Assembly: GCA_017945845.1 (NCBI GenBank)
Contig: CP072828.1
Span: 1,178,001-1,242,000 of the forward strand
DNA: 64,000 nucleotides
DNA from: Carnobacteriaceae bacterium zg-C25
GTDB taxonomy: Bacteria > Bacillota > Bacilli > Lactobacillales > Aerococcaceae
Direction of reading: 5' to 3'
Positions 27,842-49,774 of the stretch are shown here, piece by piece. The translations under genes were made by a program, and so were the position numbers. How positions within the stretch are numbered: the stretch's first letter is position 1; each line of letters starts with the position of its first letter. The notes beneath the pieces were generated by a model. It saw only the letters and a list, made by a program, of their open reading frames with translations. It ran no database searches and was not told the DNA's origin.

Positions 27842-27869
27842 AAAAAAAGGTGTTTACCTGCGTAAACAC
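27842..27869 (-). terminator. SRP RNA terminator
   Basis: GTGTTTAC / GTAAACAC with a GCAG loop, then CTTTTTTT on the minus strand. Confidence 0.9.
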
Positions 27870-27870
27870 T

Positions 27871-27955
27871 AAATGTACAGCACATAGACTTTCTACTTAG
27901 AGCTGCTTACTTCCGTATCTGACCCGGTTCATAGAAATTCTATTGCCGTACATTT
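27871..27955 (-). ncRNA. ffs: Signal recognition particle RNA (4.5S/scRNA type)
   Basis: The minus strand carries the conserved SRP domain IV: GAACCGGGTCAG, a short apical loop, then CGGAAGTAAGCAGC, the Ffh-binding symmetric and asymmetric loops. The outer ends pair (AAATGTAC with GTACATTT), giving one long hairpin of about 85 nt. An extended -10 box, TGATATAAT (27958-27966), lies just upstream and a strong terminator just downstream. Exact ends are approximate by about 5 nt. It pairs with Ffh to target membrane proteins; ffh is not in the window. Confidence 0.93.
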
Positions 27956-28019
27956 GAATTATATCAAACTTTTTATTTTTTGGCTATCTTTTCACATCGA
28001 AAAAATAACAACTCACACG

Positions 28020-40434: not shown

Positions 40435-41934
<1,500 letters not shown>

Positions 41935-41968
41935 TTATCTCCTTTAATCTGTTTTAATATATAGTTAG

Positions 41969-41981
41969 TGTAACGCTTACA
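41969..41981 (-). promoter_or_regulatory. cre-like palindrome upstream of GH1 paralogue 1
   Basis: TGTAAGCGTTACA on the minus strand is a near-palindrome related to CcpA sites but one base shorter than the consensus, 38 bp before the start codon. Confidence 0.4.
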
Positions 41982-42015
41982 GTCTGTTTTTTCTTGTTGT
42001 TTTGTATTAAAAAAT

Positions 42016-42055
42016 AATACTATTCTATTGTTTAACAAACAAATAGAATAGTATT
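42016..42055. promoter_or_regulatory. Palindromic pair of the 17-bp AraC-box candidate
   Basis: ATACTATTCTATTGTTT (42017-42033) and its inverted copy AAACAAATAGAATAGTAT (42037-42054, one extra A) are separated by 3 bp. The same 17 bp occur at 49857 beside araC. The near arm lies 86 bp upstream of GH1 paralogue 1. Confidence 0.7.
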
Positions 42056-42078
42056 ATGATGATTTTATAGTTGTATTA

Positions 42079-42114
42079 TTTTTAAGGTTGATGGTATTCG
42101 CCATAAAGTTTAAC
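42079..42114. repeat. Diverged copy of the dispersed palindrome
   Basis: TTTTTAAGGTTGATGG, TATTC, then GCCATAAAGTTTAAC: clearly related to the copies at 6270 and 57474, but the right arm has decayed. No gene is seen in 41932-42229. Confidence 0.55.
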
Positions 42115-42229
42115 TCCATTAAAGAACGGGTCTATCAGACATTCTATAAGTCTTATTTTTTTGACTTTATACACATCACAAAACAAATTCGCCAATCATA
42201 AATAACACATCTGCTTAAAGGTGCACAAA

Positions 42230-45232
<3,003 letters not shown>

Positions 45233-45262
45233 TTATATTTTACTATTACATAGTAAACGAAA

Positions 45263-45341
45263 AAAACGACCATTTCTTATATTTTCATATGAAAAACCGA
45301 TACTATACTCTGTTTATACCATGAAAAATAAGGGTCGTTTT
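45263..45341. terminator. Long inverted repeat between capA-like gene and GH1 paralogue 3, containing an AraC-box candidate
   Basis: AAAACGACC (45263-45271) pairs with GGTCGTTTT (45333-45341), and similarity of the arms continues inward (CTTAT, TTTTCAT). It can end transcription from the capA-like gene. Its loop carries ATACTATACTCTGTTT (45300-45315), a variant of the 17-bp motif. Confidence 0.6.
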
Positions 45342-45377
45342 ATTGATTATGTTTTAATATCTATGTCATTTTTTAAT

Positions 45378-46589
45378 CTATTCATCAAGCAATTGTAATC
45401 CCGATGAACTAAACACTGTTTTCATTTGATTTTTAATCCATTCGTAATTAAAGTCTGCATTATATATCGCTTGAGTGTGTTTAGCGGCCATTTCTTGATT
45501 ATAGTCTTTTAAAGGCACCAATTGATAATTCGTATCGCCTTTTTCAAAATGATTGACAATAGGAATGATTTTTACATTTTCAAACTGGTAACGACTGTCT
45601 TTTTTGACAATATCCAGATTCACTAACGCACCAATGTGATACAGCACTTGGAAATCTGGCGTTGCACGACTGACTTGAACATCTGATGAAACGGTATTAC
45701 CAAGTGAATAAAAAACTAAGGTGTGATACCCGTTGGCATTCGTTTTTTGTTCTGCTTTTTGAACGGTATGCGGATGATTTCCAATAACTAAATCAACTTC
45801 TTGTTCATTTAAAAATGTAGCCACTTCTTTTTGTGTTTCAGTCAACTCATATGTGAATTCCGTACCCCAGTGCATCGCAACAAACACTAAATCGGATTGC
45901 GCTTTTGCTTTTTTAATGTCTGCTTTTAATTTTTCTCGATGCGCTGCATCAAAGGTTAAATTTTCTGATAAAAAGTATGAGACATGATTTCCCTCAATTC
46001 TAGGTACATTCGTATCATACGTATAGGCTAAAATTGCTATTTTAATACCTTTAACATCAACAACTTTGATTTTATCAGCGTCATCCGCATTACGATACGC
46101 TCCAGTATGTGCAATACCTGCTTCATCTAAAAATTGCAACGTATTATTTAACCCTTTTAAGCCCATATCTAACGTATGGTTGTTAGCTAATGTTGCAAAA
46201 TTGATACCGATACTTGGTAATTGTTGTGCAATTTGTTTTGGTGCATTAAACGTAAACTCCGTTCCAGAAATGCCCAATTCTTCACCACCGATAGGCACTT
46301 CATGGTTTGCTATTGTCAAATCAGATTGCAAATACGGTTTAACTTTATCAAAGTAAGTACCAAATTGATAATGATCCATCCAATCGTAAAGCCCTTGCTC
46401 CCACAAAAAATCACCTGTTAAAGCAACCCGAACACGTTCATTAGGTTGAGTTGTTTCAGCGGTCGTATTTGGTGTCGTTGTTGGAGGTGTCGTTTGCATT
46501 AAACCAAAAATACAAACTAAGTAGATAATCAATAGAACAACAGCAACCCCTATTTTATTTTTCGAATCAACATGCACTCTTCTTTTCAT
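45378..46589 (-). CDS. CapA-family (poly-gamma-glutamate capsule type) surface metallophosphatase-like protein
   Basis: From ATG 46589 (AAAGGAG upstream) the protein has 403 residues: a basic start, one membrane anchor (about 15-35), then a PGA_cap/CapA calcineurin-like domain. Motifs: ALTGDFLWEQG, IANHEVPIGG, FATLANNHTLDMG, VAMHWGTEF and LVIGNHPHTVQ, with the metal-binding His/Asp pattern of the family. CapA proteins take part in poly-gamma-glutamate export or act as uncharacterised surface hydrolases. No capBC partners are nearby, so capsule synthesis is not implied. Its leader has riboswitch-like architecture. Confidence 0.87.
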   Translation of the reverse strand: MKRRVHVDSKNKIGVAVVLLIIYLVCIFGLMQTTPPTTTPNTTAETTQPNERVRVALTGDFLWEQGLYDWMDHYQFGTYFDKVKPYLQSDLTIANHEVPIGGEELGISGTEFTFNAPKQIAQQLPSIGINFATLANNHTLDMGLKGLNNTLQFLDEAGIAHTGAYRNADDADKIKVVDVKGIKIAILAYTYDTNVPRIEGNHVSYFLSENLTFDAAHREKLKADIKKAKAQSDLVFVAMHWGTEFTYELTETQKEVATFLNEQEVDLVIGNHPHTVQKAEQKTNANGYHTLVFYSLGNTVSSDVQVSRATPDFQVLYHIGALVNLDIVKKDSRYQFENVKIIPIVNHFEKGDTNYQLVPLKDYNQEMAAKHTQAIYNADFNYEWIKNQMKTVFSSSGLQLLDE

Positions 46590-46788
46590 ATCTTCTCCTT
46601 TACAACTTAAACCCATCACACATCAAACTACTTTGAATAAAAAGCGACTCACACCTTGTGAGCCGCTTTTAGTCGGTTAATTTTGGCCTCTATCACAGAT
46701 TTATTTTACTTTAAAATTTGCAGTAGATGCCCCTTGAGCCGATGACTCATTACAAAATCATTATATCGGCAAATAGTTGTTTTTACAA
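46590..46788 (-). promoter_or_regulatory. Structured leader with own promoter and internal terminator before the CapA gene (riboswitch or sRNA candidate)
   Basis: A strong minus-strand promoter, TTGTAA (46783-46788), 17 bp, TATAAT (46760-46765), starts a transcript near 46753. About 80 nt can fold (GGCTC with GAGGCC, TCTA with TAGA, ATTTTA-AAG-TAAAAT) and end at an intrinsic terminator, AAAAGCG-A-CTCACA / TGTGAG-C-CGCTTTT (46640-46670) plus T-run. The CapA start follows 50 bp later. CGGCTC near 46738 could pair with GAGTCG of the terminator arm as antiterminator. It matches no riboswitch class I recognise. Confidence 0.6.
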
Positions 46789-46803
46789 GAAATACATAGT
46801 ACC

Positions 46804-48267
<1,464 letters not shown>

Positions 48268-48361
48268 TCATTTCACCAATTATACCAACAACACACATAC
48301 ATCGTATCGCATTGTCGTCTATTCTCATCTTCAATATAAAGTTCGTTTCATTACACTACTT

Positions 48362-49774
<1,413 letters not shown>

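Follow-up and report, generated by a model that had tools for sequence, protein, structure and literature searches.

The closest described systems to the element analyzed here are the type III toxin-antitoxin (TA) systems ToxIN, CptIN, and TenpIN, whose tandem-repeat structured RNA, intrinsic terminator, and small endoribonuclease gene, located on plasmids, in prophages, and on chromosomes, all have likenesses in the intact loci described below, where the endoribonuclease is a predicted one. The AbiF RNA-dependent systems, which are used against phage, likewise consist of an RNA and an adjacent toxin gene; they differ in their protein family, and the RNA described here has no Rfam match. For type III loci, the accessible text of PMC5086642 gives as a criterion a terminator preceded by a tandem array. 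On the protein side, Iyer et al. 2017 (PMC5512222) described the PBECR domains of polyvalent proteins together with stand-alone forms in phages and mobile elements; the accessible portion of that work places the active site at a histidine and a C-terminal threonine or serine and names no RNA partner. We report here on a minus-strand segment (46788-46639) of a 64,000-nucleotide stretch of the chromosome of Carnobacteriaceae bacterium zg-C25 (the window), which we interpret, with a probability of about 0.7, as the degenerate remains of a mobile RNA element from type III-like modules that join such an RNA to a PBECR4 gene and in which the RNA is predicted from sequence to neutralize the protein.

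The initial annotation of this segment had proposed a near-consensus promoter driving a foldable RNA that closes at a strong intrinsic terminator, with the start of a CapA gene about 50 bp beyond, and all of these components are indeed present (Table 1). The promoter is the top minus-strand site within 45400-48400, an interval that holds 8 promoter-like sites against 10.1 expected by chance and thus no excess. The 122-nt transcript folds with a z score of -4.43. Its terminator hairpin, which is absent from the list of a simple terminator scan, has a stability of -19.6 kcal/mol (z = -7.06; 0 of 200 shuffles equally stable). With the terminator removed, the z score of the transcript is only -1.99 and 8 of 200 shuffles are at least as stable, so the fold signal of the window RNA is mostly that of the terminator. 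The ATG of capA follows 49 bp after the T-run. A short leader peptide (ATGAGTCATCGG..., 14 codons to TAA) was considered and rejected, as no ribosome site precedes it and, by eye, the same bases form a conserved hairpin.

Table 1. Features of the window copy, its neighboring genes, and two PBECR4 loci flanked by known Rfam RNAs
Feature	Coordinates	Strand	Basis
RNA-element promoter TTGTAA-17-TATAAT	46760..46788	-	10/12 consensus matches
5' hairpin P1 TGAG-TCATCGG-CTCA	46735..46749	-	Alignment with L006, L111, and L164; loop is one pseudoknot half
Repeat-part remnant, A/T-rich	46677..46734	-	Alignment with L006; stem 2 judged by eye
CCGACT, pseudoknot 3' half	46671..46676	-	Pairs with loop CATCGG
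Intrinsic terminator AAAAGCGGCTCACA-AGG-TGTGAGTCGCTTTTT	46639..46670	-	Hairpin and T-run; same place in other loci
capA-like gene (PGA_cap, PF09587)	45378..46589	-	Pfam E 4e-66; located where other copies have PBECR4
GH1 (6-phospho-beta-glucosidase-like) gene, upstream, outside the element	46804..48237	-	Gene list and Pfam
Bacilli-1/PBECR4/skipping-rope locus, L157	1414-2181	-	Rfam
Bacilli-1/PBECR4/skipping-rope locus, L161	1304-2091	+	Rfam

A DNA search recovered a 47-nt match to the window copy elsewhere in the same genome. This second copy (L006) lies, by eye, directly 3' of the end of the clpX gene, with a convergent gene on its other side; it has the same start and end as the window copy and, between them, two tandem units. 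Both units are kept in L006, and the PBECR4 gene is reduced to a short stub. A model of the RNA built without this genome (R1) matches L006 at 125.4 bits (E 6.8e-29). A search for further copies in the genome gave 15 other weak matches, mostly in coding sequence, all of them judged to be chance. L006 led to L111 and L125 in another genus and thence to a small downstream gene coding for a PBECR4 protein; a BOX-like dispersed repeat, the first idea after the clpX copy, was dropped once copies in other genera proved to precede PBECR4 genes. In the window itself, R1 misses the element and has a single, weak match (20.1 bits), which falls within capA, so the membership of the window copy rests on pairwise alignment. 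End to end, the window copy aligns with L006 at a score of 78.6, against a mean of 20.0 (sd 3.55, maximum 37.2) in 2000 dinucleotide shuffles. The scores with L111 (79.4), L164 (74.8), L173 (50.4), and L165 (43.2) each exceed all 2000 shuffles; that with L125 (29.4) falls within them, 15 of 2000 reaching it. The co-linear similarity to L006, L111, and L164 runs from promoter to T-run, far beyond the shuffles, and it makes it extremely improbable that the segment is a mere terminator of the upstream glucosidase gene with chance similarity, a reading otherwise in keeping with a strong hairpin placed 3' of that gene.

The small gene downstream of the RNA belongs to PBECR4 (PF18813; E 8.1e-25 and 9.4e-22 for two intact genes), the only Pfam family that the partner gene reaches at gathering score. 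Its alignment contains an invariant H62 and S154, in agreement with membership in the family whose active-site residues are given in the accessible portion of PMC5512222. By sequence, the PBECR4 alignment (A2) showed no detectable homology to a ToxN (hhalign probability, 0.4), and no match was found in the PDB. An AlphaFold model of middling confidence (pLDDT 71.3) gave nothing at E below 0.001 in Foldseek; with the same middling model, VIA gave a best Z of 4.1, with MazF at 2.4 among unrelated rows and no ToxN, an absence that is uninformative. Across the order, PF18813 is found in 31 of 295 genomes at 38 places, 30 of which were taken as loci. The RNA, which we define in this analysis as the type-A PBECR4-associated RNA, precedes the gene in 12 of the 30 (L138, L140, L142-L148, L150, L155, and L160). 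Seven others have the domain inside frames of more than 1000 aa and carry no type-A RNA (the upstream sequence having been read for L134, L135, L139, and L141), and L137, with PBECR4 in a 619-aa frame, is also without it. At the remaining 10 loci the gene is short, the leaders are unmatched by R1, and other RNA types or none were recognized. On plasmids and in phages, the RNA precedes the gene at a further set of loci (L162, L163, L164 from a Streptococcus phage, L166 from an L. plantarum plasmid, L168, L169, and L173-L175; more weakly L170-L172), and a DNA search with the Enterococcus faecium RNA and gene start retrieved 79 plasmid records with a segment of at least 95% identity, 77 of them from Enterococcus.

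Intact type-A RNAs come from phages, plasmids, and chromosomes and share a common order: a promoter, with a TATAAT-like box visible by eye shortly upstream of the 5' hairpin, that hairpin (P1), one or two two-stem units of about 50 nt, an intrinsic terminator, and usually the small PBECR4 gene. P1 comprises five covarying pairs; within each unit, stem 1 has five pairs around a loop of about nine bases, typically ACATAAGGG, and stem 2 has four pairs around a GCNRR-like loop. We collected 21 copies by anchors, excluded L006 and the single-unit copies L143 and L160, and aligned the 18 two-unit copies (A5). Pairing holds in 96.1% of 411 cells, and two-sided changes are seen at 18 of 23 pairs (87 cells versus 25.3 in shuffles), giving a covariation score of 0.596 against 0.176 in shuffled and at most 0.097 in slid versions. 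Further, the P1 loop pairs with six bases after the last unit to form a pseudoknot, with 75 of 78 pairs realized over 13 distinct loop/partner sets. In 10000 partner swaps the mean was 53.2 and the maximum 69, a margin that is somewhat flattering since the partner had been picked as the best site within the final 24 bases, a selection that the swaps did not repeat; the chosen position is nearly constant, at an offset of 10 to 13. Terminators were located by script, except that in L006 the script took another hairpin and the true one (seven pairs) was found by eye.

The initial annotation had regarded the RNA as untyped and outside the known classes, and in this it was borne out: no Rfam family was found for the window copy at gathering score, with no meaningful match when E values up to 10 were admitted, nor at curated score in Rfam 15 for the intact members L111, L112, L125, L170, L172, L175, and L204. 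RatA and BsrG matches in L111 were rejected, being below gathering score and away from the element. The same annotation had also read the complementarity of CGGCTC in the 5' part and GAGTCG in the terminator arm as a termination switch. The complementarity is real, and the switch does not hold as a feature of the family: over 19 loci, the longest pairing between the 5' hairpin and the terminator arm averages 5.42 with a locus's own terminator and 5.26 with those of other loci, and the pairing in the window is attributable to hairpin and terminator sharing letters in some members.

These observations bear on whether the RNA acts in cis. In one alternative, it would be a leader that governs read-through into PBECR4 in response to the protein or to some other signal, with no neutralization in trans. 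At most places the RNA immediately precedes the gene and is separated from it by a terminator, as such a leader would be; against this, a conserved alternative pairing with the terminator is absent over the 19 loci, and the RNA is found in arrangements that a leader does not readily account for. R1 matches 24 of the 295 genomes at 29 places, and a protein profile detects PBECR4 frames directly 3' of 19 of these, 10 intact and 9 broken. The other 10 are without PBECR4 (L178, L180, L181, L183, L194, L197, L198, L200, L204, and L206), L194 being the clpX copy of the present genome and L200 lying at a contig end. Nine are clear gene-less RNAs, found in genomes G000, G062, G161, G227, G278, G281, and G288, none of which is among the 31 with PBECR4. 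Four (L178, L180, L181, and L183) score 138.7 to 146.1 bits with R1, equal to RNAs paired with the gene, a height that partly reflects closeness to the training set, which included streptococcus-like copies; the conserved score of orphan RNAs might alternatively reflect a gene lost only recently. On a Ligilactobacillus plasmid (L167), a 55.9-bit RNA and the gene are convergent, the RNA being encoded on the other strand with its terminator adjoining the 3' end of PBECR4. Together, the gene-less intact RNAs and the convergent RNA argue for action of the type-A RNA in trans, and we consider a purely cis-acting leader unlikely. Scans of additional viral contigs gained no further loci.

Two unusual arrangements were encountered among these loci. 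In G278 (L204/L197, G278:C80), a ToxN gene (PF13958, E 6.9e-39, with a PDB match to ToxN/AbiQ) and its pair of ToxI-like repeats are immediately preceded by a tandem of two type-A RNAs, an arrangement that would put two types of RNA antitoxin next to each other. The contig IMGVR_UViG_2548877064_000002 (L165, 1-910) carries an intact orphan type-A RNA, then a second, diverged tandem RNA, and then a PBECR4-like frame that is cut by the contig end.

To return to the reading of neutralization in trans, the arrangement of RNA and PBECR4 looks like an undescribed kind of RNA-controlled TA system. In such a system, one promoter would make much RNA, and the terminator would let a minority of polymerases pass into the PBECR4 gene; the RNA would bind the PBECR4 protein and hold the predicted nuclease inactive, and the protein would be set free once the RNA or the mobile element is lost. 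With respect to the criterion in the accessible text of PMC5086642, the intact loci agree with type III apart from the toxin family. The differences are that the partner is PBECR4, with no ToxN-, CptN-, or TenpN-type toxin by sequence; that the type-A units are about 50 nt long and number only one or two; and that the 5' hairpin joins the 3' end by a pseudoknot spanning the whole array. Since ToxN homology is not detectable and the structure model is too weak to place the protein, we call these loci type III-like rather than members. We know of no ToxI in which a pseudoknot between a 5' hairpin and the 3' end spans the whole array. On balance, we lean toward a separately evolved class in which a BECR-fold nuclease, PBECR4, is neutralized by an RNA whose one or two units are closed off by the pseudoknot between the 5' hairpin loop and the 3' end. 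This class would be mobile on Enterococcus plasmids, in phages, and on chromosomes, its orphan RNAs may immunize their hosts, and its sister versions would use other RNAs, such as Bacilli-1, for related PBECR4 proteins. If this is confirmed, type III-like control would no longer be confined to ToxN-like toxins and would include a second nuclease family, one present on many E. faecium plasmids; orphan RNAs would then permit a direct test of RNA-based anti-addiction. It also gives a likely partner and purpose both to solo PBECR4 proteins, so far annotated by domain only, and to a structured RNA missing from Rfam. A search of the literature on PBECR4, PBECR, type III systems, and Bacilli-1/skipping-rope, with subscription journals and preprints (bioRxiv) outside its scope, found neither an RNA partner of PBECR4 nor the name PBECR4. 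Ern0160 of E. faecium was considered and set aside: in the accessible text of PMC8631354, type III appears in the reference list only, and no link was found.

Compared with this intact form, the window copy is much eroded. P1 retains four of four pairs, and the pseudoknot has four of six, against five or six of six in the 21 other copies. Relative to L006, most of unit 1 is gone, as is a 20-nt block of unit 2 with the 3' part of its stem 1, and by eye the pairing of stem 2 in unit 2 is lost. Two features that define an intact type-A copy are thus lacking, namely at least one intact two-stem unit and a PBECR4 gene 3' of the terminator, where capA is found instead, and the window copy is therefore a remnant rather than a full member; no PBECR4 gene was found in this genome at E 1e-8. 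Having lost its toxin gene and the bulk of its repeats, this copy would be unable to neutralize. The retained strong promoter and terminator, along with the intact orphan RNAs of other genomes, might suggest a working orphan that guards the cell against incoming PBECR4 modules by anti-addiction; given that both unit stems are lost and the pseudoknot is incomplete, we regard this as improbable for the window copy; such a role would suit the clpX copy better.

The decay appears to have spared a promoter and a leaky terminator, which now precede capA. No minus-strand promoter-like site is listed between the terminator and capA, and with promoter and terminator kept, leakage past the terminator would be the simplest account of how capA is read; the window copy is now probably only a promoter and attenuator for that gene. 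It illustrates, on a small scale, how the promoter and terminator of such a module can stay behind and come to precede a different gene. That the RNA belongs to CapA or to a sugar island, as first supposed, is contradicted by its distribution: R1 has no match at any of 20 loci that carry CapA relatives (15 of 56 loci from one search and 5 family loci), and the same RNA precedes PBECR4 genes in unrelated contexts. A ligand-binding riboswitch for CapA or sugar genes, to which the promoter, fold, and terminator upstream of capA would be suited and for which the tandem units, reminiscent of tandem aptamers, could also be counted, has accordingly very little to recommend it, as copies elsewhere, on plasmids and in phages, are partnered by a nuclease-like gene and the conserved stems are broken in the window copy.

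Around the element, five GH1 glucosidase-like genes, one of them Pfam confirmed, lie near one another on the minus strand of the window (40435-49774), and capA is flanked by two of these. Among the CapA relatives recovered, those of Erysipelotrichaceae were nearest (51% identity), which suggests transfer. The sole Rfam match of the window is a Bacterial small SRP RNA at 27864-27959 on the minus strand.

Other RNAs accompany PBECR4 at some of the loci with a short gene and no type-A RNA. In L157 and L161, the Rfam family Bacilli-1 (RF02931) lies directly before PBECR4 and skipping-rope (RF02924) directly after it. Both differ from the type-A RNA in sequence and structure, and R1 is unmatched at these loci. 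Their flanking position indicates that they may be counterparts of the type-A RNA, and it suggests that both orphan Rfam candidates are components of PBECR4 loci, which would offer a use for Bacilli-1. L149, L158, and L159 have leaders assigned to no type. In L151-L154 and L156, by eye, the sequence upstream of position 1501 shows another common leader motif, GCCTGACAGAGGC...GATCGTTGGTC, before a PBECR4 of the HLLG type; this leader matches neither R1 nor Rfam. Finally, in L111 (1674-2648), the PBECR4 frame ends at 74 codons and is followed by two short open reading frames that, by eye, resemble a RelB/ParE-type pair.
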